Part shown: positions 23,776 to 41,566 of the stretch, one piece after another | How the letters are laid out: every line of letters begins with the position of its first letter | How positions within the stretch are numbered: the first letter of the stretch is position 1 | Assembly: GCA_017416155.1 (NCBI GenBank) | Contig: JAFQDE010000019.1 | Span: 62,001-126,000, forward strand | Source: Tyzzerella sp. | GTDB lineage: Bacteria; Bacillota; Clostridia; Lachnospirales; Lachnospiraceae | Length of the DNA stretch: 64,000 bases | Direction: 5' to 3' | Translations under genes and position numbers: made by a program | Notes under the pieces: generated by a model | What the model was told of the DNA's origin: nothing | The model's input: only the letters and a program-made list of their open reading frames with translations | Databases searched by the model: none

Positions 23776-23788
23776 TGTTTTATTCTCC

Positions 23789-25186: not shown

Positions 25187-25243
25187 ATTTCGCACCTCTC
25201 CTTTTGTTCTACACATATTATAAACGTCTTTTTTTGCATAAAA

Positions 25244-25274
25244 AAGGACGTTATTTACACAAAACAACGTCCTT
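25244..25274 (-). terminator. Terminator after the AraC-type regulator
   Basis: AAGGACGTT and AACGTCCTT form a 9-bp stem. On the minus strand a run of T residues follows, 8 bases past the regulator stop and before rhaB. Confidence 0.8.
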
Positions 25275-25281
25275 ATTTGCT

Positions 25282-26244
25282 CTATTGATGTTGAACACGG
25301 AATTCCTTTGGGGAAACTCCGTATCTTTCTTTAAATTTGCGGTGAAAATAACTAGTATTATCGTATCCGACCATTCGAATAATCTCTGCTACGGACACCT
25401 GACTGTTAATTAACATATACGCCGCCTGGTTCATCCGCTTCGTCTGAACCAGCTCTTTATAAGTCATTCCCGTCCTTTTCTTAATCTCATGGCTCAACCA
25501 ATAGACACTATAGCCCATAAGTTCTGCCAATTCCGTGAGACTTCCTTCCTTATACTTTGTCTCCACATAATTCAGCACCGACACCTCGAACTCCTGCCGA
25601 TACGCTCTCCCACCTGCTTCCATCTTTTCAATGTGATTGAGAAGGTGCAAAAAAACGAGCCCCATCGTCAACTGATTACAACTTCGCTTGTTAAACTGGT
25701 TGTTCAAAAGCGACCATATCATGTTTTCAATCAGGTTCTGAATCGGCAATACATCCGCTACGTGAAAATACAAATAAGATGTCCGTCTGCCATCCTCACA
25801 GAGACTTCCCACGAGGAAATCTCGAAGCAGATTATCATCTGCACCAATCATCTCAAATGCCCGATCAAAGAACTGTGGTTGAATAATAAAATTAATGGCA
25901 ATGTCATCCTTTCCCGCCGGCAGAATCTCCTGCGTCGCATTCTGGTTGAGGAATAAAAGGTCCCCCTCCTCTAGCACAACTTCATTTCCATCAATAATGT
26001 GCGTGGTCTTTCCCCTACACATGTATATCACTTCCACATAATTGTGTCGGTGTTTCGGGAAATGCACAAATCTCGTATGAGTTCGAACCTGAATTAATTT
26101 CCCCTTCTGCAGAAAGTTCTGACTGTCTACCACCAATTCTTTCCTGTTGGTATAAATGTTCTTATTGATATTCTTTTGTCCTTCTAAAATGCGCTGCTCT
26201 TCTTCCGTAATTACGGACAGCTGCTTTACAATCTCCGCATTCAT
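25282..26244 (-). CDS. AraC-family transcriptional regulator with cupin sensor
   Basis: The 320 residues have an N-terminal cupin sensor (HKHR-type start FPKHRHNYVEVIYMC, then GDLLFLNQNATQEI). A C-terminal double HTH of the AraC type follows (about 225-318), ending YDNTSYFHRKFKERYGVSPK. Position directly upstream of rhaB-rhaA suggests control of rhamnose genes, as for RhaS/RhaR, but the ligand is not proven. It has its own terminator, so rhaB is transcribed separately. Confidence 0.88.
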   Translation of the reverse strand: MNAEIVKQLSVITEEEQRILEGQKNINKNIYTNRKELVVDSQNFLQKGKLIQVRTHTRFVHFPKHRHNYVEVIYMCRGKTTHIIDGNEVVLEEGDLLFLNQNATQEILPAGKDDIAINFIIQPQFFDRAFEMIGADDNLLRDFLVGSLCEDGRRTSYLYFHVADVLPIQNLIENMIWSLLNNQFNKRSCNQLTMGLVFLHLLNHIEKMEAGGRAYRQEFEVSVLNYVETKYKEGSLTELAELMGYSVYWLSHEIKKRTGMTYKELVQTKRMNQAAYMLINSQVSVAEIIRMVGYDNTSYFHRKFKERYGVSPKEFRVQHQ

Positions 26245-26307
26245 TTTATTCCTACTTTCGATTCACGATATGTACGGAATAATTATATCACATTTTTCCA
26301 ACTTTTT

Positions 26308-28302
26308 CTATAAAATTTCTCCGCCGTTCAGCCACTCTACATTTGCAAACATTCTGAAATCTGCAAATCTCGGTGGATTATCTGTTGGCTCGTCCTTTGC
26401 TTCCTGAATGGCAATCCACAAATCTAATGTGATTGTTTCACATTCACGAAGGTCCGGTACTAAAAGACCACCGTTATCGTAAAGAATGTCTTCTGCACCT
26501 TTGATATCTCCCGCATCCAAGATAGAGAATGCATAGTAAACACGGCATCTCGGTTCTTTTTGCAGGTTCTCAGGCATATTTTCATATACCTTCTTCAGCT
26601 CTTTGAAGCACTTATTCTCATACAGGCAACGAAGTGTCGCTTTCGCAAGAGAAATATCATATGGAATCATATCCCATGCTTTGAGCATATATTTCACTTC
26701 ATCCTGATGGTTGCCCATATCGCGGTAAAGAATTGCCAGCGCATACATTGCCCATGGAGACTCTTTACTTGCAAGAGATTCCTGTAGCATCAGTTCTGCA
26801 CGCTCATAATCCTTTGTAATAAATGTATTAAGTCCCAACTGAAGCCATGTGAACCAGTTGTTCTCGTCCTTATCCTTTACTGCGTTCTTAAGAAGCGCCG
26901 TCCACTCCGGCTGGCACATATATGAAATCGGTGCATTCTGTGGTGCGTGCTCTCCGAGTGTACCATTCTGCAACAATTCAATCCATGGAAGCTGTTCTTC
27001 TGTCAATGGGCCGAAATCTAAGTAAGCACACATTTCGTCCTCGCCTGTGATGCGACGTCTCTCCTGTTCAAGTGCACCCCATCCGTCTGCCTGAAATAAC
27101 ACTTCCTTCGCAGGACTCTTCGCCATCGCTTTTGTGGATTGAAGAAGTTCTTCTAAGGTTTCTTCTGTCAACATCTCATTCAAGCGACTTGCTGCCTCTG
27201 CCTTCGCATCCTCCCAAGCACCATGTGACTTGCTTACATCTGTCTGGATTGCCCCATAAGCTTCTACCCATTCCCATACAGTCTTTGGTGGCATCGGAAT
27301 ACATTCATATTGAGTCTGTGCAACACCGGCCTGAATCTCATTATAACTTCCGCTTTCATCGTCTGCAGTAAGGAAATTCTTCCAGTGGTCGCCGCCTTCG
27401 CTATTGCCCCACACAAAGAGTTTTCTTCCTTTCAGTCTCCTTGTAGAAGTCTGTACTAATCCATATCCATCCTTATCTACCTGACAAATGAACTTTCTCT
27501 CATCCTTTGGTATATTCCAGAAATAATCAATTGAAATAACATTATCAAGCGGATAGGTGATGTCTGTTCCGTTATATATCGGTACTGCTATCTTCACTGG
27601 ATGGCTGTCTCTTGCAGTAAATGTCTCCGTTACCGGTGTGATTACACGATTACCCGGTTCATCCGGTGCCGCAATATTACTCCACCAGTACATAGGCACC
27701 ACTTTGAACTGTGGATTCACAATCTTTGTTCTCACATATAAGAATCTAGACTCATCCGGCAGGAAGAAATCCATCTGATACACAATTCCTCGAATACGCT
27801 CATACTGATAGAAACGAAGTACCGGAGTACCGTCATCCAGATATGTTTTTGCCGTATGTAACCAGTCACAGGTAAACGGATTGTGACCCACATAACCGCA
27901 GTTCCATTCTACACCGCCTGACATCCATGCGTTGCGTACGCCAAGATGACAAGGACGAACCACACTGTTCACAAACAACAATTCTTTCTGTTCTTTCTTA
28001 TCAAACAAGGAATGCAACTTCCCACCAAACTGAGGAAGAAATGTTGCTTTCAGATACTCATTTTCCAATACAACCGTCACTTGTTCCTTGTCCTTTAATT
28101 CACGGGTATAGTTATCCTGTGCTTTATACGGAAAACCATAGTCAACCATACCGAAATTTACAAATAATTCATCATCCTCATGTAGTTCAAACACATCCTG
28201 CATAAAAGATAGTCTCAGTTCCTCTGATATCGATGGCAGAGAACTTACACCGTTAAATTCTGCACTTGGAATTGTCATATTTTCTATACGAAATTCTGTC
28301 AT
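26308..28302 (-). CDS. DUF5107 domain protein with TPR repeats
   Basis: The 664-residue product resembles DUF5107 proteins. The N-terminal half (to about 330) is a mutarotase-like beta-sandwich with FLPQFGGKLHSLFDKK and SGGVEWNCGYVGHNPFT. The C-terminal part (about 440-640) is helical with TPR-like repeats (MLQESLASKESPWAMYALAI, MGNHQDEVKYMLKAWDMIP). No signal peptide is visible. Function is unknown; a carbohydrate-binding or epimerase role is inferred from the fold. Its promoter is one of three 58-bp boxes shared with the inositol operon, so it is probably inositol-regulated. ATG at 28302 has AAAGGA ahead. Confidence 0.75.
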   Translation of the reverse strand: MTEFRIENMTIPSAEFNGVSSLPSISEELRLSFMQDVFELHEDDELFVNFGMVDYGFPYKAQDNYTRELKDKEQVTVVLENEYLKATFLPQFGGKLHSLFDKKEQKELLFVNSVVRPCHLGVRNAWMSGGVEWNCGYVGHNPFTCDWLHTAKTYLDDGTPVLRFYQYERIRGIVYQMDFFLPDESRFLYVRTKIVNPQFKVVPMYWWSNIAAPDEPGNRVITPVTETFTARDSHPVKIAVPIYNGTDITYPLDNVISIDYFWNIPKDERKFICQVDKDGYGLVQTSTRRLKGRKLFVWGNSEGGDHWKNFLTADDESGSYNEIQAGVAQTQYECIPMPPKTVWEWVEAYGAIQTDVSKSHGAWEDAKAEAASRLNEMLTEETLEELLQSTKAMAKSPAKEVLFQADGWGALEQERRRITGEDEMCAYLDFGPLTEEQLPWIELLQNGTLGEHAPQNAPISYMCQPEWTALLKNAVKDKDENNWFTWLQLGLNTFITKDYERAELMLQESLASKESPWAMYALAILYRDMGNHQDEVKYMLKAWDMIPYDISLAKATLRCLYENKCFKELKKVYENMPENLQKEPRCRVYYAFSILDAGDIKGAEDILYDNGGLLVPDLRECETITLDLWIAIQEAKDEPTDNPPRFADFRMFANVEWLNGGEIL

Positions 28303-28345
28303 AATCACTCTCGTCCTTTCATGAAATAGATAAATGTTTCTACTG

Positions 28346-28403
28346 TAATTAAAACACAATTTCACGCAAAATCCAACGCAAAACTGTGCATAATTTATGC
28401 ATA
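28346..28403 (-). promoter_or_regulatory. Shared inositol-regulon promoter box, copy 1
   Basis: 58-bp box 44 bases before the DUF5107 start. It contains TTGGAT (28376-28371), 17-base spacer and TTTAAT (28353-28348) on the minus strand. Over its core 40 bases (28364-28403) it matches copy 2 at 38574-38613 at 34 positions. Upstream of the -35 it carries TGCATAATTTATGCA, a palindrome. Confidence 0.75.
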
Positions 28404-28422
28404 TATTTTATACATTTTTTAT

Positions 28423-28451
28423 TTGAAATGATAGGGTTCTCATGTTATCAT
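28423..28451 (+). promoter_or_regulatory. Promoter of the 28498 gene
   Basis: TTGAAA (28423-28428), 17-base spacer, TATCAT (28446-28451). A perfect inverted repeat CTCATG-TTAT-CATGAG (28439-28454) overlaps the -10, a possible operator. Confidence 0.55.
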
Positions 28452-28497
28452 GAGTTATATGTGATTTGATATTTGATTCAAGGAGAGTACAACAGAA

Positions 28498-29241
28498 ATG
28501 ACATTACGAGAAGAAGTTACTAAAAAACGTCAAGAATATTTTGCTACAGCAACGAAAAAAGAAAAAATTGCCTATCTGATTCAATATTATGGTATCCGTA
28601 CTATATTGATATGCATTGCCGCATTGTTTATCGGTTCCTGGATTTATCATCTCATAACTGATCCGGACCGGATCCTTACCGGAACATTTGTAAATTATAA
28701 CTTATACGACACAACCTTAAACATAGATGAATTAGAAAAAGACTTTCTATCTGCACAAAAGATTGACGAATCTGAATATATGGCTGACTTCCTTACAAAC
28801 ATAACCATCGTACAATCGGAAGAAGCAACCGGACAGCAAAACGATCAGACTCTGTATACACAGATTGCAAGCGGTGTATTAGATTTCGCAGTCGCAGACA
28901 TTGAGGTTCTTAAAAATTATGCTTACGGTTATCATTTTGCAGACTTAACTACTATTCTATCGAAAGAACAGATTGAATATTTCGAGCCATACTTTCTCTA
29001 TGTTGATATAGCGGTAATGGAAGAACGCCAGGAAAAGCATGAAGAAATTCCGCTTCCTGATATGAGAAATCCGGAAGCTATGGAAAACCCGCTTCCTGTG
29101 CTCCTTGACATCTCAAACTGTCCGATTATTCAGGAAATATATGGAGAGAACAGCTCTGATATATGCTATGGCATTATAAGAAAAGGGGAACATCGGGATA
29201 ATGCGATCAAATTTTTAGAGTACCTTTCCGTCAATCAGTAA
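28498..29241 (+). CDS. Membrane-anchored hypothetical protein
   Basis: The 247 residues are not recognised. A cytoplasmic N-terminus (about 35 residues, rich in Lys and Glu) is followed by one membrane helix (TILICIAALFIGSWIYHLI, about 40-58) and an extracellular domain of about 185 residues. That domain has IASGVLDFAVADIEVLKNYA, reminiscent of a solute-binding fold. It is divergent from the DUF5107 gene, and its 3' end overlaps the convergent PHP gene by 27 bases, which is unusual. ATG at 28498 follows AAGGAGAG. Confidence 0.6.
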   Translation: MTLREEVTKKRQEYFATATKKEKIAYLIQYYGIRTILICIAALFIGSWIYHLITDPDRILTGTFVNYNLYDTTLNIDELEKDFLSAQKIDESEYMADFLTNITIVQSEEATGQQNDQTLYTQIASGVLDFAVADIEVLKNYAYGYHFADLTTILSKEQIEYFEPYFLYVDIAVMEERQEKHEEIPLPDMRNPEAMENPLPVLLDISNCPIIQEIYGENSSDICYGIIRKGEHRDNAIKFLEYLSVNQ

Positions 29242-29907
29242 GCAACCTTCTTTATTCCGAAGTGCCAGAATCAGTTCATCCATTGTTCTGATTCTGCGCT
29301 CAAAGTTATTACCCGTACGGCCGATTCGCCCCTCACTGATCATATGAACATCCCCACCGGATGTCATGATTTTGTCAAGTCTAACAGCATCCTGGTAAGC
29401 CATATCATTTGTGGCATAGTCATCACCGCCATTGTAGACTTCAATACCATCGCACACATCATAACGTGGCATAACTCCCTCCGGAATATATCCGCGTTTC
29501 CGATACGGATGCGCGTGAATTATAATACCACCCTCTTCATGAACCAGTTGTGCCAATGTGTCTATATCTATAGTTTCTATCTCAGGATGAGCCCGTAAAA
29601 AATCCAAGTCAATACCATATATCAAGACTTCTTTGCCTTTACCATAATGATGCTCTATCCCAAAAAACACATCAAAATCAAGCTGGGCAGCTTCATCTTT
29701 TGCTTCCAGATATGCATCGTAATACATGTTCATTCTTTCGCCCCATGAAATGTCTTTGGGTACGCAAGTGTTTCCTGTTATAAAATGATTCGTCAACACA
29801 AAGCCCGCATATCCTGCCTCTTTATATCTTCTTACCATCTCTCTGGCAGTACTGCTGGCACAAGCACTACATTCAGAGGAATGTAAATGTGTTTCGTATA
29901 AGTACAT
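29215..29907 (-). CDS. PHP-domain metal-dependent hydrolase
   Basis: The 230 residues form a PHP domain of the histidinol-phosphatase-like type. The metal-binding histidines are visible in YETHLHSSECS, LTNHFITGNT, FFGIEHHYG, GIIIHAHPYRK and SGGDVHMISEGRIG. Members are usually phosphoesterases; the substrate here is unknown. It has its own promoter box matching that of the inositol operon, so it is probably part of the same regulon. Its stop overlaps the convergent gene ending at 29241. Confidence 0.8.
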   Translation of the reverse strand: MYLYETHLHSSECSACASSTAREMVRRYKEAGYAGFVLTNHFITGNTCVPKDISWGERMNMYYDAYLEAKDEAAQLDFDVFFGIEHHYGKGKEVLIYGIDLDFLRAHPEIETIDIDTLAQLVHEEGGIIIHAHPYRKRGYIPEGVMPRYDVCDGIEVYNGGDDYATNDMAYQDAVRLDKIMTSGGDVHMISEGRIGRTGNNFERRIRTMDELILALRNKEGCLLIDGKVL

Positions 29908-29950
29908 GTTTGCTTTTATCCCTTCATAAATAATGTAAATAACTTACTTA

Positions 29951-30008
29951 TAATTAAAGCACAATTTCACGAAAATTCCAACGTGAAATTGTGCTTAATT
30001 TATACAGT
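29951..30008 (-). promoter_or_regulatory. Shared inositol-regulon promoter box, copy 3
   Basis: 58-bp box 44 bases before the PHP gene. TTGGAA (29981-29976), 17-base spacer and TTTAAT (29958-29953) are on the minus strand. It contains a perfect 15-bp inverted repeat, AAGCACAATTTCACG (29957-29971) and its complement (29982-29996), which may also act as the iolA terminator. Confidence 0.75.
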
Positions 30009-30027
30009 CTTATAACCGACTTTTATT

Positions 30028-31539
30028 CTAGATTGTTCCATCCCATGTAGATGTCTCTGTCTTCTTCGCTTCTTCTTCATCGAACCAGTGTTGTGTTACA
30101 ACCTTAGTCTCTGTGTAGAAACGGTAGCCGTCTTTTCCAAGACAGTGAAGGTCACCGATGAATGAGTTCTTATGTCCTGAGAATGGGAACATGCCAACCG
30201 GTACCGGAATACCTACGTTAACACCTACCATACCGCCGTCTGTGTGACGAGCAAATTCTCTTGCGTAGTAACCACTCTGTGTATAGATAACAGAACCGTT
30301 TGCAAATGGGTTGTTGTTCATAATGCGAAGGCCCTCTTCAAATGTCTTCACACGTTTGATACAAAGTACAGGCCCGAAGATTTCTCTTGCTCCAACTGTC
30401 ATTTCCTCTGTTACATTGTCAAGGATTGTAGGACCTACATAGCATCCGTTTTCGTATCCTTCTACGACTACATCACGTCCATCTAATACGAGTGTTGCAC
30501 CTTCTTCGATACCTTTATTAATCCAATCGATAACAGATTTTTTGTGTGCAGGATTAACAACAGGTCCGAGTTTTGTTTCTTTGTCATATGCAGGACCAAT
30601 CTTCAGGTTCTTAGCAAGTTGTACAATCTTAGCAACGAGTTCGTCAGCAATTTCTTCCTGAGCTACAACTACAGGAAGTGCCATACAACGTTCTCCTGCA
30701 CATCCAAATGCAGAGTTGATGATACCTGCTGCTGTTCTGTCGATAGCTGCATCATTTAATACTAACGCATGGTTCTTTGCTTCACAGAGTGCCTGTACAC
30801 GTTTTCCGTTCGCAGCTGCCTGTGCGTAGATATGAAGACCTACAGATGTAGAACCAACGAATGTGATACCTTTGATATCCGGATGGCTCATGAACATTTC
30901 TGCCTCATTTCTTGAGCATGTTACAATGTTGATTACACCGTCAGGAAGACCTGCTTCTTTGTAAAGTTCAGCGATGCGAAGTGCTGTTCTTGGTGTGAAA
31001 CTTGCTGCTTTAAGTACGATTGTGTTACCGCAAGCGATACACATTGGTGTCATCCATCCCATTGGAATCATAGCTGGGAAGTTGAATGGAACGATACCTG
31101 CAAATACACCAAGAGGTTCTCTGTAAAGTACGGTATCATATCCTGAAGAAGCATCCATAAGGCTTTCACCCATCATAAGTGATGGTGCAGAGATTGCCTG
31201 CTCTGTTCCTTCTTTTGCCTTTAATACATCACCCTTTGCATCTGCCCATGACTTACCGTTTTCTCTTGCTACTAACTCTGTAAGTTCATCCATGTGCTCG
31301 ATGAGTAAATCTCTCACTTTGTAGAGAATCTGTACTCTCTTGATAACCGGTGTTGCTGACCATCCCGGGAATGCAGCCTTTGCTGCGGCGATTGCCATCT
31401 CTACTTCTTCTTTTGTACAGCATGGTACTTTTGCAACTACCTCTCCTGTACTTGGATCGTAAGCGTCCAAATATTTCTCTGTTTTTGATTCTACATATTC
31501 ACCGTTGATATACGGTCTTAACTTGATTACTTCTGACAT
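30028..31539 (-). CDS. iolA: Methylmalonate/malonate-semialdehyde dehydrogenase (acylating)
   Basis: Oxidises malonate semialdehyde to acetyl-CoA and CO2 with NAD+ and CoA, the last inositol-specific step. The 503 residues are an aldehyde dehydrogenase of the CoA-acylating type: VPFNFPAMIPMGWMTPMCIA, FVGSTSVGLHIYAQAA, and the catalytic cysteine in NSAFGCAGERCMALPV. MFPFSGHKNSFIGDLHCLGK near the C-terminus is diagnostic of MmsA/IolA. Last gene of the iol operon. ATG at 31539 has AAAGGAG ahead. Confidence 0.95.
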   Translation of the reverse strand: MSEVIKLRPYINGEYVESKTEKYLDAYDPSTGEVVAKVPCCTKEEVEMAIAAAKAAFPGWSATPVIKRVQILYKVRDLLIEHMDELTELVARENGKSWADAKGDVLKAKEGTEQAISAPSLMMGESLMDASSGYDTVLYREPLGVFAGIVPFNFPAMIPMGWMTPMCIACGNTIVLKAASFTPRTALRIAELYKEAGLPDGVINIVTCSRNEAEMFMSHPDIKGITFVGSTSVGLHIYAQAAANGKRVQALCEAKNHALVLNDAAIDRTAAGIINSAFGCAGERCMALPVVVAQEEIADELVAKIVQLAKNLKIGPAYDKETKLGPVVNPAHKKSVIDWINKGIEEGATLVLDGRDVVVEGYENGCYVGPTILDNVTEEMTVGAREIFGPVLCIKRVKTFEEGLRIMNNNPFANGSVIYTQSGYYAREFARHTDGGMVGVNVGIPVPVGMFPFSGHKNSFIGDLHCLGKDGYRFYTETKVVTQHWFDEEEAKKTETSTWDGTI

Positions 31540-31597
31540 TGTTTTGTTCTCCTTTTTTTGTATTTTGTATCTTGTTTTATGATAAGTGTAGCTCTGC

Positions 31598-32614
31598 TTA
31601 CATCATAATCTCAGAAATTGCTACCGGTCTGTGTTCTTCTACTGACTTTTTCGCTGCAAGTCCCATTAATACAGGTTTTAAACCATCCATAACACCAAGT
31701 GGTGTATCTGTATCGTTTTCAATTGCACCTATAAATTGGTTCATTTCCTCACGGAAGGAATCCATATATCTCTCCAAGAAGAAATACAATGGTTTTTCTC
31801 CTGTTACGCCGTCTGCATTGCTAATCACTGCTGTTGACAAGCTGTCATTTCTTGTTGCAACCATACCGCCTGAACCAAACACTTCTGCTCTCTGGTCATA
31901 TCCGTATACTGCTTTACGAGAGTTGTCAATCACAGCGATTGCACCGTTTTCCATCTTAAGTGTGATAACTGCTGTATCCACATCTCCTGCTTCACCGATT
32001 CCTTTATCAACTAAAACTGCTGACTGTACATATACTTCTGTCGCGTCACATCCTGCAAGGAAACGCACCATATCAAAATCATGAATCGTCATGTCAAGGA
32101 ACATACCGCCTGACACTGCAACATAAGCTGGTGACGGTGGTTCCGGGTCACGTGATGTAATCTTGATGATGTGTGGATCTCCGATTTTTCCTGCCACAAC
32201 GGCATCTTTTACTGCCTTGAAGTTGTGGTCGAATCTGCGGTTGAATCCAACTTGATATTTCACATTGGATTCCTTCAACGCATCGATAACTTCTTTGATT
32301 TTGTCGATGTCATGATCAATTGGTTTCTCACAGAAAACATGTTTTCCTGCCTTGATTGCTTCTACCGAGAGTGGTGAGTGTGTGTCTGTTGAAGAACAGA
32401 TAATAACTGCATCAATCTCCTCATCTGCAAGGATCTCTTTGTAATCCTTTGTTACTTCAATACTGCTGTCCATGCTATGAATCCATGCTGCTGTGTCATC
32501 ATTCATAAATGGGTCTGCAATTGTCTTGATTTTCGCATTACGCACGCCAGTGATAATGCCTTGCGTATGTACCTTGCCGATTCTACCGGCACCGATAATT
32601 CCTACATTTACCAT
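31598..32614 (-). CDS. iolG: Inositol 2-dehydrogenase
   Basis: Oxidises myo-inositol to 2-keto-myo-inositol (inosose) with NAD+, the first step. The 338-residue GFO/IDH/MocA protein has the Rossmann motif GIIGAGRIGKVH, then FCEKPIDHDIDKI (catalytic Lys region) and SGGMFLDMTIHDFDMVRFL (Asp/His pair). It lies between iolE and iolA in a single transcript. A scyllo-inositol preference cannot be excluded. Confidence 0.93.
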   Translation of the reverse strand: MVNVGIIGAGRIGKVHTQGIITGVRNAKIKTIADPFMNDDTAAWIHSMDSSIEVTKDYKEILADEEIDAVIICSSTDTHSPLSVEAIKAGKHVFCEKPIDHDIDKIKEVIDALKESNVKYQVGFNRRFDHNFKAVKDAVVAGKIGDPHIIKITSRDPEPPSPAYVAVSGGMFLDMTIHDFDMVRFLAGCDATEVYVQSAVLVDKGIGEAGDVDTAVITLKMENGAIAVIDNSRKAVYGYDQRAEVFGSGGMVATRNDSLSTAVISNADGVTGEKPLYFFLERYMDSFREEMNQFIGAIENDTDTPLGVMDGLKPVLMGLAAKKSVEEHRPVAISEIMM

Positions 32615-32627
32615 GTGGTTTTCCCTC

Positions 32628-33527
32628 CTATAAGCCTGTTTTTTCTTTAATATATGCTCTCGCCTTCATGGCATACTCTAATGGATTTGCCTTAGCAGGA
32701 TCCTGCTCTGCTTCCACCAGCATATAACCTTCGTAATTGTTTTCTTTTAATACTTCAAATATCTCATCAAAGGAAATGCATCCGTCCCCCGGTACTGTAA
32801 AGGTTCCAAGACGCACACCGTCTAAGAAGCTTAAGTGTTTTTCTTTAACATTCTTAACCACTTCCGGTCTGATGTCCTTCAAATGCACATGCTTAATTCT
32901 GTTCACATGAGCCTTTACCATATCTAATGGATTCTCTCCACAGTATGCGAAATGTCCTGTATCGTACAAAAGGCTTACGTATTTTTCATCCGTCTCATCC
33001 ATCAAACGTTTTACTTCTTCCGCAGTCTGTACTACAGTTCCCATATGATGATGGAAGGTAAGCGCAACGCCGTACTCTTCTAAGGAAATCTTTCCAAGAC
33101 GATTTAATCCGTCTGTCAGAAGCTTCCACTCTTCGTCGTTCATCACATATTTGTTATCAAACACTGCTACATCCTGGAATCCCTGAATGCTGTGTCCCTG
33201 CTCTGATACGCCGACTACCTTTGCACCCATTTCTTTTAAGAATGCCACATGTTTGCGAAACTCTACTTCTGTTTCCTCAAATGGCTTTGTAGTTAAAAAT
33301 GTTGAAAACCATGCGTTGCAAATCTGCATACCTCTAAGCTCTAATGCTTTTTTCAATACTGCTGAGTCCTTTGGATATTTATTTCCGATTTCTGACCCTG
33401 TAAATCCTGCCAAAGCCATTTCGCTCACGCATTGCTCAAATGTATTCTCCTTGCCCAAATCCGGCAAATCATCATTTGTCCAGGCAATTGGGGCAATTCC
33501 AAGTTTTACTTTGTTCTTATCAAACAT
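32628..33527 (-). CDS. iolE: Inosose dehydratase
   Basis: Dehydrates 2-keto-myo-inositol to the trihydroxycyclohexane-1,2-dione. The 299 residues have an AP-endonuclease-2-like TIM barrel: KLGIAPIAWTNDDLPDLG at the start, TFHHHMGTVVQTAEEVKR, LLYDTGHFAYCGENPL and HVHLKDIR. These are typical of IolE. It lies 13 bases before iolG and 17 after iolB. Confidence 0.95.
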   Translation of the reverse strand: MFDKNKVKLGIAPIAWTNDDLPDLGKENTFEQCVSEMALAGFTGSEIGNKYPKDSAVLKKALELRGMQICNAWFSTFLTTKPFEETEVEFRKHVAFLKEMGAKVVGVSEQGHSIQGFQDVAVFDNKYVMNDEEWKLLTDGLNRLGKISLEEYGVALTFHHHMGTVVQTAEEVKRLMDETDEKYVSLLYDTGHFAYCGENPLDMVKAHVNRIKHVHLKDIRPEVVKNVKEKHLSFLDGVRLGTFTVPGDGCISFDEIFEVLKENNYEGYMLVEAEQDPAKANPLEYAMKARAYIKEKTGL

Positions 33528-33544
33528 TTTCTTTCTCTCCTATT

Positions 33545-34330
33545 CTAGAATTCTGCATCATGCATCCACACATAACGTTCATCTTCATTTCTGTCTGTCT
33601 GAAGCCATTTCTTGTTGTCCAAATGACGTATCATCCAGCAGGTGTACATCTGGAAGCCCGGTGCACACACCTGCGGATGCAATGCTCCGCCCGGTATTGC
33701 AGAAAAACTTCCGTCCACACTCTTGTATACATCATCATCAATGTAGCTGGCACCAAAGCCCTCCGGTCTGTCAAATAAGAAATAATACACTTCCGGTTGC
33801 GGATGTCTGTGTGGCAGATATCCTGACCAGTTGCCTGGGTCATTTAATACTTCTCCCAATACCATGTTGGAATATGGTGCAATGTCAGCATCAAAGATTG
33901 TGTTCACTCTGCGTTTCGCCGTGTTTCCAAACTTTCCGAGACATGAATATTTAAAAGGAGCATCTTCCGGTTTGTATATCTTTGTTTCAAACTCTTTGTC
34001 ATTCTTTGTACTTTGTACCAGAATCTCTGTATCACTCATAGCTTCCACTGTTACTTCTGTTCCCTTGCACACATGCATGCAGTATGGTCCTTCTGTAAAG
34101 ACATCTTTTCTGGAGCATGCAATGCTCTTTTCTTCTGCCTGCATAGATACAGAGCCTTTTAACAAGAGTACGGCTGTCTCTTCGCCGCATTTCTGAAAGC
34201 TTTTCTTTTCGCCTGCCTTCATCTGATACACACGAATATCCATCATCATATCCTTGTACTCATTATCATAAGTAGTAAGAATCTTTTCTCCGTTTGCATC
34301 AAAGGTAGGATAACCAAACACTTTACTCAT
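33545..34330 (-). CDS. iolB: 5-deoxy-glucuronate isomerase
   Basis: Isomerises 5-deoxyglucuronate to 2-keto-5-deoxygluconate. The 261 residues form a double cupin; metal ligands are seen in SGYLPHRHPQPEVYYF. ALHPQVCAPGFQMYTCWMIR is typical of IolB. ATG at 34330 (MSKVFGYP) has AGGAGG upstream; the reading frame stays open to 34450, but that part overlaps iolD and has no ribosome site. It is 13 bases after iolD. Confidence 0.94.
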   Translation of the reverse strand: MSKVFGYPTFDANGEKILTTYDNEYKDMMMDIRVYQMKAGEKKSFQKCGEETAVLLLKGSVSMQAEEKSIACSRKDVFTEGPYCMHVCKGTEVTVEAMSDTEILVQSTKNDKEFETKIYKPEDAPFKYSCLGKFGNTAKRRVNTIFDADIAPYSNMVLGEVLNDPGNWSGYLPHRHPQPEVYYFLFDRPEGFGASYIDDDVYKSVDGSFSAIPGGALHPQVCAPGFQMYTCWMIRHLDNKKWLQTDRNEDERYVWMHDAEF

Positions 34331-34343
34331 CGCCTTACTCCTC

Positions 34344-36275
34344 CTAGTAGATTCTTGCCTGACTTCTGCCTTCCATAACTCCCTGGCAGGCAGCGTTGAC
34401 GCTTTCTTTTTCAGAAGTCGTTGCAATTCCGACATTCCACCATGCTCCATAGCCGTCTGTCATTGTCTTTGGAATAACCTTGAGGTCAAATAAACATGCT
34501 ACATCTTGTGTTTTTGCATCTTCTAAAGCATCTACTAATTCTTCAATCGTTCTACAGGTGTAAGATTTGAGTCCGTATCCTTCAGCAACCTTCGCATAGT
34601 CCACCGGAATCAAATCTCCGTCCGGTTTCTTTCCGCTTGTGTAACGGAACTCAGTTGCGAGACTTCCGATTCCATGATTCATTTCTAAGTTGTTAATGCA
34701 GCCGAATCCACAGTTGTCAAATACCATAATATTGACTTTTGTTTTCTCCTGCATAATCGTCATAATTTCACTGTGCATCATCTGGAAGGACGCATCTCCT
34801 ACAAATGCATATACTTCGCTTTCCGGATCTGCCATCTTAACACCAAGTGTTGCAGCTACCTCGTATCCCATACAAGAATATCCGTACTCTGCGTGATATG
34901 CTCCTCTCTTATCTGTAGTCCACATACGTTGCAGACAGCTTGGAAGAGAACCGCCGGCTGTGATGATGATTGCATCATCCGCAATTGTTCTTCGTACCGC
35001 TGCGATGGCACCTGTCTGTGTTAGTTCACCTTTTGTAAGCTCTACAAATTCCGGAATGGTTCTAGGGTCCATAGCCTTGATATTTGGCTCAAAACCTTCT
35101 TTTGTATAGGCATAGTTAGAGAGACGTTCCATCTCTTTGTCCCATGCTGTTTTCGCTTCTGCAATCTCATTCTCATATGCCGACTTATAGCCCTTGCTGC
35201 GAAGAACCTCTGCCAATGCTTCGATTGTAGCCTTCGCATCACCGACAGCTTTCACAGCATCCAATTTGTATGCGTGGAATCTGCTGTTGTTGATAGTTAC
35301 AAACTTCACGTTTTCATTCTGATACAACTGTTTGGAACCAGTCGCAAAGTCAGACATTCTGCTTCCGACTGCAATAACGACATCTGCATCTTTTGCCAAA
35401 ATATTTGCTGCATAAGTTCCTGTGACACCGATTCCGCCAAGGCACATCGGATGGCTGGATACACATGCGCTCTTTCCTGCCTGTGTTTCACCGAACGGTA
35501 TCTTGAATTCAGTACAGAAATTCTCTACAGTCTCTCCTGCATCGGAATATTTTACACCTCCGCCCACAATCATAAGTGGCTTCTTAGCGTTCAAAATTAC
35601 ATTTGCAACATCTTCGATTTCCTCTTTATCTGCAACCACTCTTGTAATGCGGTGCACTCTTTTCTGGAAAAAATATTCTGGGAAATCAAAAGATTCCCCC
35701 TCTACATCCTGGCTGAGTGCAATACAACAAGCGCCTGTCTCTGCCGCATCAGTAAGCACTCTCATTGCATTGATAAGTGCCGTCATAATCATCTCTGGTC
35801 TTGTAATTCTGTCCCAATATTTGCATACTGGTTTGAATGCATCATTGGTTGTCACAGCAAGGCTGCTACTGATTTCCAACTGTTGAAGCACCGGGTCCGG
35901 CTGTCTGGATGCAAATGTATCCGCCGGGAATACAAGAAGCGGAATGTTATTTACGGTTGCTGTCGCACATGCAGTTACCATATTTGCCGCACCAGGTCCG
36001 ATAGATGAAGCACAAGGAATGATTTTTTTGCGATTGTGCTGTTTTGCAAAGGCAATCGCTGTATGGCACATACCCTGCTCGTTTCTTCCCTGGAATACTT
36101 TTAGGTTTCCCGGATTCGTATCTAACGCCTCACCGAGTCCTACGGCAATTCCATGTCCGAATAAGGTGTAAAAACCTTCTACGAATTTTGTCTCCACACC
36201 ATCCATGGAAACATATTGATTATCTAAAAACTTTACAATAGCCTGCGCTACTGTCATACGAATTGTTTTATCCAT
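34344..36275 (-). CDS. iolD: 3D-(3,5/4)-trihydroxycyclohexane-1,2-dione hydrolase
   Basis: Thiamine diphosphate enzyme that opens the inositol ring, giving 5-deoxyglucuronate. The 643 residues resemble acetolactate synthase with longer loops, as in IolD. Visible are QGRNEQGMCHTAIAFAKQHN (catalytic Glu), SSIGPGAANMVTACATATVN, and the ThDP motif GDASFQMMHSEI with FDNCGFGCINN. ATG at 36275 has GAGGAG upstream. It sits between iolC and iolB. Confidence 0.95.
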   Translation of the reverse strand: MDKTIRMTVAQAIVKFLDNQYVSMDGVETKFVEGFYTLFGHGIAVGLGEALDTNPGNLKVFQGRNEQGMCHTAIAFAKQHNRKKIIPCASSIGPGAANMVTACATATVNNIPLLVFPADTFASRQPDPVLQQLEISSSLAVTTNDAFKPVCKYWDRITRPEMIMTALINAMRVLTDAAETGACCIALSQDVEGESFDFPEYFFQKRVHRITRVVADKEEIEDVANVILNAKKPLMIVGGGVKYSDAGETVENFCTEFKIPFGETQAGKSACVSSHPMCLGGIGVTGTYAANILAKDADVVIAVGSRMSDFATGSKQLYQNENVKFVTINNSRFHAYKLDAVKAVGDAKATIEALAEVLRSKGYKSAYENEIAEAKTAWDKEMERLSNYAYTKEGFEPNIKAMDPRTIPEFVELTKGELTQTGAIAAVRRTIADDAIIITAGGSLPSCLQRMWTTDKRGAYHAEYGYSCMGYEVAATLGVKMADPESEVYAFVGDASFQMMHSEIMTIMQEKTKVNIMVFDNCGFGCINNLEMNHGIGSLATEFRYTSGKKPDGDLIPVDYAKVAEGYGLKSYTCRTIEELVDALEDAKTQDVACLFDLKVIPKTMTDGYGAWWNVGIATTSEKESVNAACQGVMEGRSQARIY

Positions 36276-36291
36276 GCCCTTATGCTCCTCC

Positions 36292-37326
36292 TTATACTCT
36301 GGCAACCATTTCACCATAAAGTTCTTTTTCCTCTGCGATAAATGCACGCACCTTATCCTCTGTCGGCAAATCATCGGAGCAATTATTGCTGCGCACCATC
36401 ATAGATGCCTCTGCAGAACCGAACTCCAGACAGTCGAAAATCGGCCATCCTTGGAACAATCCATACAAGAAGCCTGCCGCATAACCGTCACCACCGCCAA
36501 AACCTTTTCTCGCGGTTACAGGGAATGGCTTGATAGAGAACTTCTGTCCATCGCGGGTGTATGCGGTAGAACCTTTCATACCATGCTTAATTACAACGAT
36601 TTGAGCATGATGTCCCTGCCAATAAGCTGCGCTCTCTTCATCCGTCATACCAGGCTGAATGAGTTTCTCTGTAAGATCAAACTCCTCTCTAGAACCCATA
36701 ATAATGTCCGCTTCTTTTGCAATAATCGAATAATACACAGAGATTTCATCCTTATTTTTCCAGTTGTATGCACGGTAATCGATATCAAAGATGAGCTTTG
36801 TTCCATTCTTCTTAGCCAGCATTGCCGCCTTGACTGCAGCCTCTCTCGATGGGCTTTCCGCAAGCGAGGTTCCGGAAATCAAAAGCGCCTTTGTGTTCTT
36901 TATGTATTCCTCGCTGATATCATCAACAGAGAGCTGTAAGTCCGCAATACAGTTGCGGTACATCAAAATGCTGCTCTCAGAAGGCGAAAGCATTTCCGTA
37001 AAGGTAAGGCCTAATTTCTCTCCATTTGTGCATCTGGTAATCTGTGATGTATCAATTCCTGCTTCGTCAAAATAATCTGTCACGAAATCACCGAACTGAT
37101 CATCTGATACCTTTCCGATAAAGCCGGTCTTCATGCCATGCTTATTCACTCCTACTGCAATGTTCGCCGGAGAGCCACCTAAGAATTTTTCAAACACATG
37201 TACCTTCTTAAGTGGTTTAAACTCCTCTTTAACCTGGTCGTTGTACGCAGGATTAAAATCAATCGCAACACGTCCGAGCAATACCAAATCAAATGGTCTT
37301 GTATTATCAAATTCGATATATTTCAT
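36292..37326 (-). CDS. iolC: 5-dehydro-2-deoxygluconokinase
   Basis: Phosphorylates 2-keto-5-deoxygluconate. The 344-residue PfkB/ribokinase protein has VLLGRVAIDFNPAY, FLGGSPANIAVGVNKHGM and the C-terminal ATP/catalytic motif RKGFGGGDGYAAGFLYGL. Three start codons are close (GTG 37335, ATG 37329, ATG 37326); I chose 37326 because GAGAGG lies 8 bases ahead. The product would need the aldolase IolJ, which is not in this window. Confidence 0.93.
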   Translation of the reverse strand: MKYIEFDNTRPFDLVLLGRVAIDFNPAYNDQVKEEFKPLKKVHVFEKFLGGSPANIAVGVNKHGMKTGFIGKVSDDQFGDFVTDYFDEAGIDTSQITRCTNGEKLGLTFTEMLSPSESSILMYRNCIADLQLSVDDISEEYIKNTKALLISGTSLAESPSREAAVKAAMLAKKNGTKLIFDIDYRAYNWKNKDEISVYYSIIAKEADIIMGSREEFDLTEKLIQPGMTDEESAAYWQGHHAQIVVIKHGMKGSTAYTRDGQKFSIKPFPVTARKGFGGGDGYAAGFLYGLFQGWPIFDCLEFGSAEASMMVRSNNCSDDLPTEDKVRAFIAEEKELYGEMVARV

Positions 37327-37350
37327 CATCTTCACCTCTCGTAAATGTCT

Positions 37351-38517
37351 CTATTTCATCCAAGGATCCATTACAATCTTCATGCTCTGGCTGTAATCCA
37401 TAGATAGCTCAATTGCTTTCTTTGCATCCTCTAATGCGAAACGATGTGTAATCAGTTTTTCAAATGGATACATATCCTGATATCTTTGCATCATGCGCAT
37501 AGATGGGTTGTAACCTGAAATAGAGTGATTTGACATTCCAAGGATTCTTACGTTCTTAGCGCAGAGTTCATGTGGCTTTAATTCTACGCTACGCCCAACG
37601 TCTACGAAGTTACCAACGATAAGGTAAGTTCCTGCTTTACGAACCATGCGAAGTCCCTCTGGGAATGCTTCAGGCTCACCTGCACATTCTACTACTACGT
37701 CTGCTCCGCGTCCGCCGGTCATCTGATATACCATTTCTACACGTTCGTCTTCTGTTGTATCTGCAAGACATAATGTGAGGTCTGCGCCAAACTGTTTTGC
37801 CATATCCAAGCGGAACTGTGATGTATCTGTCATGATGACTTTGTCTGCACCAAGCATACGTGCTTTGATCATGTGGCAGATACCAAGTGGACCTGCACCT
37901 AAGATAACAACTGTATCACCGAATGCAAAACCTTCACCGTCAAATGCATACATTTCTTTAGCCTTGTCTAAGCTGTATGTAACATCAAATAACTCTGCAA
38001 ACACTGCCACTTCCGGTTTCATTCCTTCCGGAACCTTATATACTTTTACTTTATCTGTAATTGCCATGTACTGTGAGAAACCACCGAACAAATGTGGTGC
38101 GTTTGCACATGAGAATGAATTACCATAGGAACGAACATCGTTGCACCATGGGTAATCCGGAATGTGTTTACAGAACCAGCAATCACCGCAAGATGTATCC
38201 GGACACATAACAACACGGTCACCCGGCTTTAGAATCTGTCCGTCAAAATCTAAGTGTAAGCTTCCTTCTTTCGTAATCTCTTCAATAATACCAACGTTCT
38301 CATGTCCCTGAATAATCGGGAATGGAGTTGTTATTTCCTGTGCTGTTCCGGCATATTGGCGTACTTCGCCTTTGTATGTATGTTTATCCGTACCACAGAT
38401 TCCTGAAAGTTCCATACGCATAATTGCCCCGTTCTTTGGCATCTCCGGATAAGGGAACTGTTGTACCTCAATGTTTCTAGGTGCAGTAAGAACTGCTGCT
38501 TTTACCATGTCTCTCAT
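37351..38517 (-). CDS. Zinc-dependent medium-chain dehydrogenase, first gene of the iol operon
   Basis: The 388 residues form a zinc alcohol dehydrogenase family protein. Catalytic zinc ligands are in LSGICGTDKHTY and IIQGHENVGI; structural zinc cysteines are in SCGDCWFCKHIPDYPWC; the Rossmann motif is VVILGAGPLGICHM. Given the operon, a polyol or inosose dehydrogenase role is likely; a family relative in Thermotoga acts on scyllo-inosose. This assignment is inference. ATG at 38517 follows AAAGGAGG and is downstream of promoter box copy 2. Confidence 0.85.
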   Translation of the reverse strand: MRDMVKAAVLTAPRNIEVQQFPYPEMPKNGAIMRMELSGICGTDKHTYKGEVRQYAGTAQEITTPFPIIQGHENVGIIEEITKEGSLHLDFDGQILKPGDRVVMCPDTSCGDCWFCKHIPDYPWCNDVRSYGNSFSCANAPHLFGGFSQYMAITDKVKVYKVPEGMKPEVAVFAELFDVTYSLDKAKEMYAFDGEGFAFGDTVVILGAGPLGICHMIKARMLGADKVIMTDTSQFRLDMAKQFGADLTLCLADTTEDERVEMVYQMTGGRGADVVVECAGEPEAFPEGLRMVRKAGTYLIVGNFVDVGRSVELKPHELCAKNVRILGMSNHSISGYNPSMRMMQRYQDMYPFEKLITHRFALEDAKKAIELSMDYSQSMKIVMDPWMK

Positions 38518-38555
38518 AGTTTTCCTCCTTTTATATGAAAATTAGTTTCCTGATT

Positions 38556-38613
38556 TTATTTAAGCATATTTTTATGCAAAAACCAATGCAAAGTTGTGCA
38601 TAATTTGTGCATA
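38556..38613 (-). promoter_or_regulatory. Shared inositol-regulon promoter box, copy 2 (iol operon)
   Basis: 58-bp box 39 bases before the dehydrogenase start. TTGGTT (38586-38581), 17-base spacer and TTAAAT (38563-38558) are on the minus strand, at the same offsets as in copies 1 and 3. It includes a perfect tandem TGTGCATAATT repeat (38595-38616) that sits between the iol and regulator promoters. Confidence 0.8.
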
Positions 38614-38619
38614 ATTCTA

Positions 38620-38648
38620 TTGTAATTCCCGTCGTAATCTGTTATAAA
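38620..38648 (+). promoter_or_regulatory. Promoter of the LacI-family regulator
   Basis: TTGTAA (38620-38625), 17-base spacer, TATAAA (38643-38648), divergent from and adjoining box copy 2. Confidence 0.65.
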
Positions 38649-38681
38649 ATAGATAGATTTATTTACTAAAGGAGAACTCTG

Positions 38682-39710
38682 ATGATAAGCACAAACGAAT
38701 TGGCGAAGCTTGCCGGTGTCAGCCAATCTACCATCTCCAGATGTCTGAACGACCATCCTTCGATTTCGTTTGAAACGAAGGAGCGGGTGCAAAAGCTTGC
38801 ACTGCAGTATGGCTATGTGGAACAAAAGCGCGGTCGGAAAACCTTATTTTCCGGAGAGCACAAAGTAATTGGCATTCTTGTAGAAGACAGACCATTTTTC
38901 GACGATCTGTTTATTAACTATACAATTGGCAAATTGATAAGCAAGGCATCAAAAAAGAATTACTACACAATTCGTCTTCCGATTTCCTCGCAGGAACTTG
39001 GGAGCATGGAACGATTAAAAGAATTCTTGCGATTGAATTTAATAGATGGTTTTATCATCATGCACCGCCGCTTTGACGAGGATATGCATGAATACCTGAG
39101 CGAACTTGGCATCCCTCATGTATATCTACTACACTGCTCACGCAATTCTTTTGAAGCAGTTGATATGATAGACACCGACAACTACATCGGCGGGTACCTT
39201 GGAACGAAACATTTAATTGAGAACGGCCACAGGGACATCATAACGCTCACCTGCCCATGGCGCGAGTTTGAGGACCGTACAAACGGATATCTCCACGCAC
39301 TCGAAGAAGCAGGTATCAATCCGAATCGAAATTTTGTTTTGTTGGGCGAATGTTCTTACCAAAGTGCATATGATGTTACATGCAAGCACTTGAATTTATT
39401 CAAAAACGCTACTGCTGTGTACATCCAAAGTGATATTATGGCAACCGGGGTCATCAACGCACTACGTGCCAATGGTCTTCGCATTCCGGAGGACATTTCC
39501 ATCATAAGCTCTGACGGATATGATTTGGGTGCCATATCAAGTCCGCAATTCGACAGTGTGGCTCACCCTATCTCGGAATTGGCAGACCTTGCAATCACAC
39601 GTCTGGTTGAAAAAATCGGTCGAACAAAACCGCAAAGTCCAAGGCAGATTAAACTGATGCCTTTTATTGTAGAACGGAACTCTGTAAAAAACATGAACAA
39701 AGAAATATAA
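38682..39710 (+). CDS. LacI-family transcriptional regulator (probable inositol repressor)
   Basis: The 342 residues have an N-terminal LacI HTH (ISTNELAKLAGVSQSTISRC) followed by the hinge region and a periplasmic-binding-like sensor domain (HKVIGILVEDRPFF; DTDNYIGGYLGTKHLIENGH; IPEDISIISSDGYDLG). Divergence from the iol operon across the shared box makes it the best candidate to control iol, the DUF5107 gene and the PHP gene. It is not the DeoR-type IolR of Bacillus. Effector unknown; an inositol-derived ligand is inferred. Confidence 0.88.
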   Translation: MISTNELAKLAGVSQSTISRCLNDHPSISFETKERVQKLALQYGYVEQKRGRKTLFSGEHKVIGILVEDRPFFDDLFINYTIGKLISKASKKNYYTIRLPISSQELGSMERLKEFLRLNLIDGFIIMHRRFDEDMHEYLSELGIPHVYLLHCSRNSFEAVDMIDTDNYIGGYLGTKHLIENGHRDIITLTCPWREFEDRTNGYLHALEEAGINPNRNFVLLGECSYQSAYDVTCKHLNLFKNATAVYIQSDIMATGVINALRANGLRIPEDISIISSDGYDLGAISSPQFDSVAHPISELADLAITRLVEKIGRTKPQSPRQIKLMPFIVERNSVKNMNKEI

Positions 39711-39725
39711 TTGGAGGAAAATAAT

Positions 39726-40742
39726 ATGAAGTATACAACACTTGGAAAAACCGGATTAAATATATCTGTCATCGGACTCGGAGGACTTCCGGTTCAACGA
39801 ACAGATCAAGAAGGTGCAAATGCCATTGTAAAGGCTTGCATGGAGCAAGGGATTAACTTCTTGGACACCGCAAGAGGTTACACGGTTTCTGAAGAATTCT
39901 TTGGAAATGCACTGAAAGGCTACCGCGACAAATGGGTCATTGCGTCAAAAGCCATGTCCAGGGATTACGAAGGAATGAAGGCAGATATTGAGACTACTCT
40001 TCGCAATCTGCAGACAGATTACATAGAACTGTACCAGATGCATAATATTCGAAGCGAGGCCGAGATGGAGCAATGCTTTGGTGAAAATGGCGCATACAAG
40101 GCGCTTCTCGAAGCAAAAGAAGCCGGCAAGATTGGTTATATCGGCGTAACAGCACATGAACTTCGTACTTCTGCCATCTTACTTGACAAGTACGGTGATA
40201 AGATTGATACCTTTATGTTCCCATACAATATTGTGGAAAACCAAGGGGAAGAATTGATGCAGGAATGCGCCAAAAAGAATATTGGCTTTATCGCAATGAA
40301 ACCGATTGCCGGAGGAAATATTGAGGATGCCGTTTTGGCATTAAAATACATTTTGAACAATCCGGACTGTACAGTGGTAATACCGGGAATGGGTGATGCA
40401 GAAGAAGTTGTCAAGAACACAGCACCGGAAGTCTTTGAACCGTTAACAGAAGAAGACAAAGTGGCTTGTGACAAGATCATCAAAGACTTGGGCAGTAATT
40501 TCTGCAGAAGATGTGGTTACTGCGCACCATGCCCTCAAGGAATTGACATCCCACGTAATTTTATTTTGGTGAATTACATTCGCAAATATGGTTTGGCAGA
40601 CTGGGGAAGAAAATGTTTTGCTGCTCTTCCTGCTACTGCTAAAGATTGTGTGAAATGCGGTATCTGTGAAACAAGATGTCCATATGACTTACCGATTCGA
40701 CAGATGTTAGAAAAAGTTGCTGAAGATATCGAGATAAAATAA
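39726..40742 (+). CDS. Aldo/keto reductase with C-terminal 2[4Fe-4S] domain
   Basis: The 338 residues have an AKR barrel (GLNISVIGLGGLPVQR; INFLDTARGYTVSEEFFGNA with catalytic Asp and Tyr; YIELYQMHN) and a ferredoxin-like tail. Its cysteines are CRRCGYCAPCP and CVKCGICETRCPYDLP, enough for two clusters. Such proteins are common in anaerobes, with unknown electron partners. It is the second gene after the LacI-type regulator (15 bases), so probably inositol- or polyol-linked. ATG at 39726 has GGAGG 8 bases ahead. Confidence 0.87.
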   Translation: MKYTTLGKTGLNISVIGLGGLPVQRTDQEGANAIVKACMEQGINFLDTARGYTVSEEFFGNALKGYRDKWVIASKAMSRDYEGMKADIETTLRNLQTDYIELYQMHNIRSEAEMEQCFGENGAYKALLEAKEAGKIGYIGVTAHELRTSAILLDKYGDKIDTFMFPYNIVENQGEELMQECAKKNIGFIAMKPIAGGNIEDAVLALKYILNNPDCTVVIPGMGDAEEVVKNTAPEVFEPLTEEDKVACDKIIKDLGSNFCRRCGYCAPCPQGIDIPRNFILVNYIRKYGLADWGRKCFAALPATAKDCVKCGICETRCPYDLPIRQMLEKVAEDIEIK

Positions 40743-40758
40743 ACGGTGCTTAAAACAA

Positions 40759-40792
40759 ACAGGACAAAAGGCTTTAAAACCTTTTGTCCTGT
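40759..40792 (+). terminator. Terminator after the aldo/keto reductase, facing tpiA
   Basis: 13-bp perfect stem (ACAGGACAAAAGG and its complement) with an 8-base loop, then T residues at 40795-40800. It lies between convergent genes and can also end the tpiA transcript. Confidence 0.88.
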
Positions 40793-40802
40793 ACTTTTTT
40801 AC

Positions 40803-41552: not shown

Positions 41553-41566
41553 AATTCTAATCTCCT

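Follow-up and report, generated by a model that had tools for sequence, protein, structure and literature searches.

What reads the three near-identical 58-bp boxes that precede an inositol operon and two neighboring genes in the genome of a Tyzzerella sp.? The boxes (boxes 1 to 3; Table 1) lie on a 64,000-nucleotide stretch of contig JAFQDE010000019.1 (assembly GCA_017416155.1, positions 62,001 to 126,000), here called the window. Box 1 precedes a DUF5107 gene, box 2 a PHP-like gene, and box 3 the gene for a zinc-dependent alcohol dehydrogenase (ADH) that heads the ADH-iolCDBEGA operon, with a gene for a LacI-type regulator (starting at 38682) divergent from ADH. Judged from sequence, the boxes are probably promoter switches through which one sugar-sensing LacI-type repressor controls inositol breakdown and the two neighboring genes. 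Control through such boxes would be an ordinary kind of bacterial regulation, with a binding site that is somewhat unusual.

All three boxes described in an earlier note on this DNA are present on the minus strand, and they agree pairwise at 48 (boxes 1 and 2), 46 (boxes 1 and 3), and 40 (boxes 2 and 3) of 58 positions. The mean agreement of a box with the plus strand of the window is 15.6 to 15.8 positions (standard deviation, 3.4 to 3.5), and the best agreement more than 60 bp away from every box is 31 of 58; the highest values outside the boxes, reaching 40 for box 2, come from the boxes themselves, read on the reverse strand or out of register. When a matrix is built from two boxes, the held-out box ranks third, behind its training pair, with scores of 66.9, 53.2, and 47.9 bits, compared to 24.8 to 33.8 bits for the best other place, which is each time the plus strand over box 2. 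The boxes are separated from the start codons by 43 (DUF5107), 43 (PHP), and 38 (ADH) bases. The coordinates and the strand are as the earlier note had them, although its gaps of 44, 44, and 39 bases were each one too long, and it is copy 3, not copy 2, from which the lacI gene diverges.

A sequence-only model built from the three boxes (R1) was used to search the window's own genome (2.07 Mb, 84% complete), with 150 of 237 first-look candidates scored; all own-genome results reported here have this scope. The boxes were recovered with E values of 6.2e-17, 2.2e-16, and 1.3e-15 and are the sole matches below 1e-7. The next matches were to an element designated C53 (partial, on a 4-kb contig; E 8e-7), to the reverse strand of box 2 (E 0.002), and to an element designated C1 (E 0.005). 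Beyond C1, and with second readings of the same places set aside, the best match has an E value of 0.17; the weak matches C39, C1:77463, and C10:8562 show nothing box-like by eye, and nine congeners gave no R1 match better than E 0.068. The earlier note had proposed a genome scan, and many unrelated copies, as of a plain repeat, were to count as a refutation. Since only three strong matches were found in the own genome, and since just 2 of 397 family genomes have a box at E ≤ 1e-6 (see below), the boxes are not a plain repeat.

The C53 and C1 elements (L018:3893-3938 and L019:6783-6832) are long dyads whose arms nearly match those of boxes 1 and 2; T-rich tails follow them, and the genes nearby are unrelated to inositol. 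Box 2, and in part box 1, might then belong to a family of terminator-like dyads (GCACAATTTCACG...CGTGAAATTGTGC plus a T-rich tail) dispersed in the genome, the link to box 3 being secondary. Strong folding is indeed calculated for boxes 1 and 2 (-18.2 and -21.7 kcal/mol; z, -3.4 and -6.6) and for C53 and C1 (-23.4 and -25.9 kcal/mol), but not for box 3 or for the boxes of the related loci L048 and L050 (z, -1.9 to -0.9). Furthermore, box 2 comes directly after the iolA stop codon, C53 comes after the end of a short open reading frame, and a scanner lists box 1 as terminator-like. However, outside the arms the boxes resemble one another and not the dyads: 16 non-arm columns have the same letter in boxes 1 and 3, and the number of these that are matched is 12 for box 2 and 14 for each of the L048, L049, and L050 boxes, compared to 7 for C53 and 6 for C1. 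Box 1, moreover, has nothing to terminate, because it sits between two divergent genes. A terminator family is for these reasons an unlikely account of the boxes. The C53 and C1 dyads may be terminators with arms in common with the box, and box 2 (29951-30010), with its hairpin after the iolA stop codon, may be both operator and terminator.

That the boxes are instead promoter-operators of the LacI-type protein is supported by their distribution. The search for relatives of this protein requires exact short peptide words and so detects close relatives only; four were found (L048, L049, L050, and L051; 80%, 72%, 68%, and 61% identical). The record titles of three of them name sheep colon, goat rumen, and goat rectum, and L049 and L050 are labeled Lachnospiraceae. 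Between lacI and ADH, R1 matches L048 (E 6e-12), L049 (E 1e-8), and L050 (E 6e-9) without gaps over model positions 2 to 58, a range that includes the proposed promoter hexamers. L048 also contains a second box-like element (L048:9912-9963; TTGCCT-17-TTTAAT) that faces lacI and has an E value of 8e-4 in the loci and 0.04 in the whole genome; lacI may be autoregulated in L048.

In an even sample of 397 family genomes, the box (E ≤ 1e-6; 14 candidates scored per genome, with strict filters), LacI (E ≤ 1e-70), and ADH (E ≤ 1e-150) each occur in two genomes. These are the same two, the window's own and G223, which is the L050 genome (same contig) and is not counted as an extra one. The samples for box, LacI, and ADH were taken as one sample on the basis of identical totals of genera and of complete genomes. 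With the window's genome set aside, a single genome of the remaining 396 has LacI, and the same genome is the only one with a box. A further 15 genomes of the sample have weak box matches only (E 3e-4 to 0.009), which were taken as background. LacI was found only in the window's genome in an earlier 150-genome sample (E ≤ 1e-60), and among 391 class genomes in the window's genome plus one (G489) with two distant relatives. These two, L094 and L095, have a LacI that is 32 to 33% identical, and they have no box. Near their lacI genes are even, TGCA-bearing palindromes with a central CG, TTGCAAGCGCATGCAA (L094:1467-1482) and ATGCATACGTGTGCAT (L095:1452-1467), which may show the ancestral operator. 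These palindromes are a hint only, because resampled sequences reach as much (P of 0.41 for L094 and 0.023 for L095). Overall, common control by the LacI-type protein is supported by co-occurrence in the same 2 of 397 genomes and by the three relatives, of four, in which the whole box is conserved; the earlier note had taken the boxes of the window as strong evidence for common control.

The internal structure of the boxes suggests how such control might work. Each has a TTGG word, a 17-base spacer, and an AT-rich -10 region, as the earlier note described, with the proposed hexamer pairs being TTGGAT/TTTAAT, TTGGAA/TTTAAT, and TTGGTT/TTAAAT in boxes 1, 2, and 3, respectively. The palindrome TGCRYAANTTRYGCA is matched exactly at two places in the 64 kb, one in box 1 and one in box 3, and at no place in 200 resampled windows. 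Across six pooled boxes (three of them from the window), two-fold symmetry is strongest for an odd 15-bp palindrome centered on column 10 and spanning columns 3 to 17 (p ~0.01 by column shuffles). This signal emerges only with the six boxes pooled; none of the single-locus palindrome tests at five box loci is significant (lowest P, 0.14), and over the pooled boxes a 40-bp dyad noted in box 2 does not reach significance (p 0.2). TGCR words occur at columns 3, 14, 24, and 36 in boxes 1 and 3, and box 2 has CACA, CACG, CGTG, and TGTG at columns 16, 24, 38, and 46. Column similarity peaks at lags of 11 and 22, values reached singly by 9 and 6 of 1,000 column shuffles, respectively.

We consider it likely that the box serves as a sigma-70 promoter and as an operator at the same time. 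The LacI-type protein would bind about five TGCRYAA-like half-sites spaced 10 to 12 bp apart, or about one helical turn. The clearest pair of half-sites would be the odd 15-bp palindrome just upstream of the -35 hexamer, with the others overlapping the -35 hexamer and lying within the 17-base spacer between -35 and -10. A protein bound in these positions would compete with RNA polymerase, which makes repression, rather than activation, the simplest reading. Transcription of DUF5107, the PHP gene, and ADH-iolCDBEGA would stop while the repressor is bound, until a sugar or cyclitol, either inositol or a compound related to it, frees the repressor from the DNA.

Several observations weigh against this reading. 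The consensus promoter scanner lists none of the three proposed hexamer pairs and reports an overlapping pair (TTTGCA-16-TAAAAT) near box 3, so the exact -10 hexamer is uncertain. An exact TGCR word is missing from box 2, where the palindrome is no rarer than expected by chance. The best lag of all is reached by 92 of 1,000 column shuffles, and helical phasing is therefore suggestive only. The even palindrome with a central CG that is usual for operators of this family is absent from the box, in which the best symmetry is odd and lacks CG; by comparison, 1,251 of 1,303 LacI regulators in a published compilation have even palindromes, mostly with a central CG (PMC4052901). At the L051 locus there is no R1 match at E ≤ 10, and the best match in that whole genome (E 0.36) is not convincing, although the L051 lacI region does contain a degenerate box, seen by eye and by alignment as a similar array with one inserted base, and outscores 297 of 300 resampled sequences in its fit to the box consensus. 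The DUF5107 loci in the L048, L049, and L050 genomes have no R1 match (in L069, over the 354 upstream bases covered). Finally, co-occurrence of the box with LacI and ADH rests on few genomes.

The protein itself belongs to the LacI family (PF00356, 43.2 bits with a cutoff of 27; PF13377, 97 bits with a cutoff of 26.5), and its relatives of solved structure include PurR, CcpA, and RbsR. It scores far below the curated cutoff for CytR (117.7 bits against 436). Among five orthologues, 21 of the first 30 residues are invariant, including Q15, S16, and R20. The canonical hinge helix contains Ala-51 and Leu-54, and a central CG in the operator is tied to the conserved hinge leucine (PMC2978694). In this group the hinge is KRGRKTLFS-like, basic (KRGRKT), and one residue longer, unlike the usual N-x-x-A-R-x-L hinge of L002, L094, and L095. 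The alanine (Ala-51 in the numbering of PMC2978694) is replaced in either alignment register; the Leu-54 position is Thr or Ala, or else aligns with residue 55 (L, F, or Y), the placement of a gap deciding between the two. Because replacement of the leucine depends on gap placement, the hinge is consistent with, and not proof of, an altered mode of binding. By sequence, both the operator and the hinge of this regulator appear to be atypical for LacI proteins. A more far-reaching scenario, which we regard as doubtful, is that a LacI protein with a noncanonical hinge dropped the two-half-site, CG-centered operator and now coats the promoter via about five helically phased, AT-centered TGCRYAA-like half-sites, from upstream of the -35 hexamer into the spacer, and that it moves among animal-gut Clostridia together with ADH, capturing inositol, rhamnose-linked, and DUF5107 targets.

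The boxes might also serve a different regulator, for example CcpA, Rex, or the AraC-type protein encoded at 25282. The gene for this AraC-type protein directly follows DUF5107 on its downstream side, and the box arms contain CACA/TGTG and CGTGAA words. The consensus patterns used were WTGNAANCGNWNNCW for the CcpA cre site and TTGTGAANNNNTTCACAA for Rex. Neither a cre-like match (up to 1 mismatch) nor a Rex-like match (up to 3 mismatches) was found in any box, and among the 397 genomes the box tracks LacI and ADH. Control by one of these other regulators is very improbable. Cre-like patterns with up to 1 mismatch number 73 in the window (1-64000), compared to 38 expected from shuffles. A riboswitch or other known RNA element was rejected after a search of window positions 26000 to 42000 against Rfam yielded no matches at the gathering score.

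Precedents for several of these features, taken separately, are available. Comparative genomics indicates that LacI regulators mostly control local sugar pathways, with more than 75% of sites located 30 to 140 bp before the start codon, and seven nonorthologous LacI groups have been assigned to inositol (PMC4052901). The ends of our boxes, 43, 43, and 38 bases before the start codons, fall within that range, as for the LacI-family "IolR" regulators of that study. However, the motifs of the latter are nearly all even, mostly with a central CG, while the box is odd and CG-less; odd palindromes are found for about 4% of the known LacI regulators. IolQ (DegA) of Bacillus subtilis is likewise a LacI-family protein that is encoded beside its target, represses the inositol dehydrogenase gene iolX, and has two binding sites within one promoter region (PMC5504672). 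Its sites differ in being cre-like (AGAAARCGCTTKCK) with a central CG and in lying at +4 to +30 and +68 to +88; the boxes have TGCRYAA-like half-sites, no central CG, and an overlap with the proposed promoter. CytR of Enterobacteria, another LacI-family protein, recognizes TGCA-type half-sites arranged as inverted or direct repeats with spacers of up to about one helical turn or more (PMC3454398). Loosely spaced TGCA half-sites thus have a precedent in this family, although CytR acts by anti-activation together with CRP. IpsA of Corynebacterium resembles the proposed regulator in being of LacI type, with myo-inositol as the effector and a palindromic site, but it mainly activates inositol synthesis, and its motif contains a central CG group (PMC3899939). 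The main texts of four papers on bacterial inositol metabolism (PMC8355322, PMC12838507, PMC12482443, and PMC9430895) do not mention LacI. Among the papers listed in the literature searches, which mostly did not extend to subscription papers, no description of this regulator group was found.

Table 1. Boxes, palindromes, and genes of the putatively box-controlled region (window coordinates)
Feature	Position	Strand	Remarks
Box 1	28346..28403	-	Candidate promoter-operator of DUF5107 gene; proposed -35 28371-28376, -10 28348-28353
Box 2	29951..30008	-	Candidate promoter-operator of PHP gene; proposed -35 29976-29981, -10 29953-29958; strong hairpin directly 3' of iolA
Box 3	38556..38613	-	Candidate promoter-operator of ADH-iolCDBEGA operon, inside ADH/lacI divergent region; proposed -35 38581-38586, -10 38558-38563
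Palindrome, box 1	28387..28401	-	Perfect 15-bp TGCRYAA-N-TTRYGCA, 0 mismatches; upstream operator candidate
Palindrome, box 2	29992..30006	-	2 mismatches to TGCRYAA-N-TTRYGCA; level reached by chance elsewhere in window
Palindrome, box 3	38597..38611	-	Perfect 15-bp TGCRYAA-N-TTRYGCA, 0 mismatches
LacI-family regulator	38682..39710	+	PF00356, PF13377; proposed binder of boxes
Possible lacI promoter	38620..38648	+	TTGTAA-17-TATAAA, read from sequence; starts 6 bases past box 3
ADH	37351..38517	-	Zinc-dependent alcohol dehydrogenase; first gene of box-3 operon
iolC	36292..37335	-	TIGR04382
iolD	34344..36287	-	TIGR04377
iolB-like	33545..34336	-	TIGR04378, 103.5 bits, below cutoff of 205
iolE	32628..33527	-	TIGR04379
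iolG	31598..32614	-	TIGR04380
iolA	30028..31539	-	Methylmalonate-semialdehyde dehydrogenase; TIGR01722
PHP-like gene	29215..29907	-	Behind box 2; PF02811, 22.4 bits, just below cutoff of 26.4
DUF5107 gene	26308..28302	-	Behind box 1; PF17128

Among the genes behind the boxes, ADH reaches no curated NCBIfam cutoff, its best scores being 156 bits for HpnZ and 147 bits for IolM against cutoffs of 328 and 450. The possible lacI promoter is not listed by the scanner, because the scanner demands a T at the end of the second hexamer. On the other side of box 1 is a divergent gene without a Pfam match (28498-29241), with a promoter-like site (TTGAAA-17-TATCAT) that starts about 20 bases from the box; LacI bound at box 1 could influence this gene as well. 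Downstream of DUF5107 and on the same strand (22525-26244) are the AraC-type gene, which is closest to RhaS but far under the cutoff, and the genes rhaB and rhaA.

What, then, does the regulon contain? A constant unit of LacI, box, and ADH (85 to 88% identical) is found in the window, L048, L049, and L050. Behind ADH are iol genes in the window and in L048 (there assigned by similarity to the window proteins; iolE, 89%) and a rhamnulokinase-like gene in L049 (404.6 bits; cutoff, 528), and in L050 the contig ends. The gene that follows the rhamnulokinase-like gene (L049:2-997) has no Pfam or NCBIfam match. In L051, LacI is divergent from a YgjV-DUF5107-DUF624 operon, the DUF5107 protein of which is about 75% identical to that of the window. 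Because the L051 lacI gene faces a DUF5107 operon, the link between LacI and DUF5107 is supported independently of the window. Homologues of DUF5107 are present in all five LacI genomes (49 to 76% identical in the other four, with one match partial), but outside the window R1 detects no box at these loci (over the 354 upstream bases covered in L069), which counts against the link. Homologues of iolE are present in four of the genomes, with none matched in the L051 genome. The iolE loci of the L049 and L050 genomes (60% identical) have no box, and whole-genome R1 searches of these two genomes gave no second box below E 0.1.

Box-controlled iol genes were thus seen in two of the five orthologue-bearing genomes and not in L049 or L051. 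The earlier note had called the system an inositol regulon, and for the window's genome the sequence evidence supports inclusion of the inositol genes, which follow a box-controlled ADH there and in L048. As a general name, however, "inositol regulon" is not secure, because ADH is followed by a rhamnulokinase-like gene in L049, the L051 genome gave no iolE match, and the iolE loci of the L049 and L050 genomes are boxless. An alternative is that the same LacI binds the boxes but that the regulon serves rhamnose or another plant-glycan sugar, the inositol genes having been recruited in some genomes. The rhaA, rhaB, and RhaS-like AraC genes downstream of DUF5107 in the window are in line with this idea, as are the rhamnulokinase-like gene behind ADH in L049 (below its curated cutoff), a rhamnosidase-domain gene (PF17389) adjoining lacI in L048, and a GH106-family gene (PF17132) near lacI in L051. 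However, the box-controlled operon of the window and of L048 consists of ADH plus the iol set, and no R1 match precedes rhaA or rhaB in the own genome. We regard a regulon devoted primarily to rhamnose or another such sugar as a credible possibility but not the favored one; the rha genes in the window and the neighbors in L048, L049, and L051 nevertheless suggest a rhamnose side to the regulon.

LacI-type inositol regulators are already known, both as a repressor (IolQ; PMC5504672) and as an activator (IpsA; PMC3899939). What the boxes would add is a testable regulator-operator pair for inositol catabolism in relatives of gut and rumen bacteria. Inositol is freed from dietary phytate, and Anaerostipes ferments it to propionate (PMC8355322). 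The boxes would also tie the uncharacterized DUF5107 and PHP genes to control by LacI. Should the operator prove real, DNA recognition in the LacI family would gain a rare type that is odd and CG-less.

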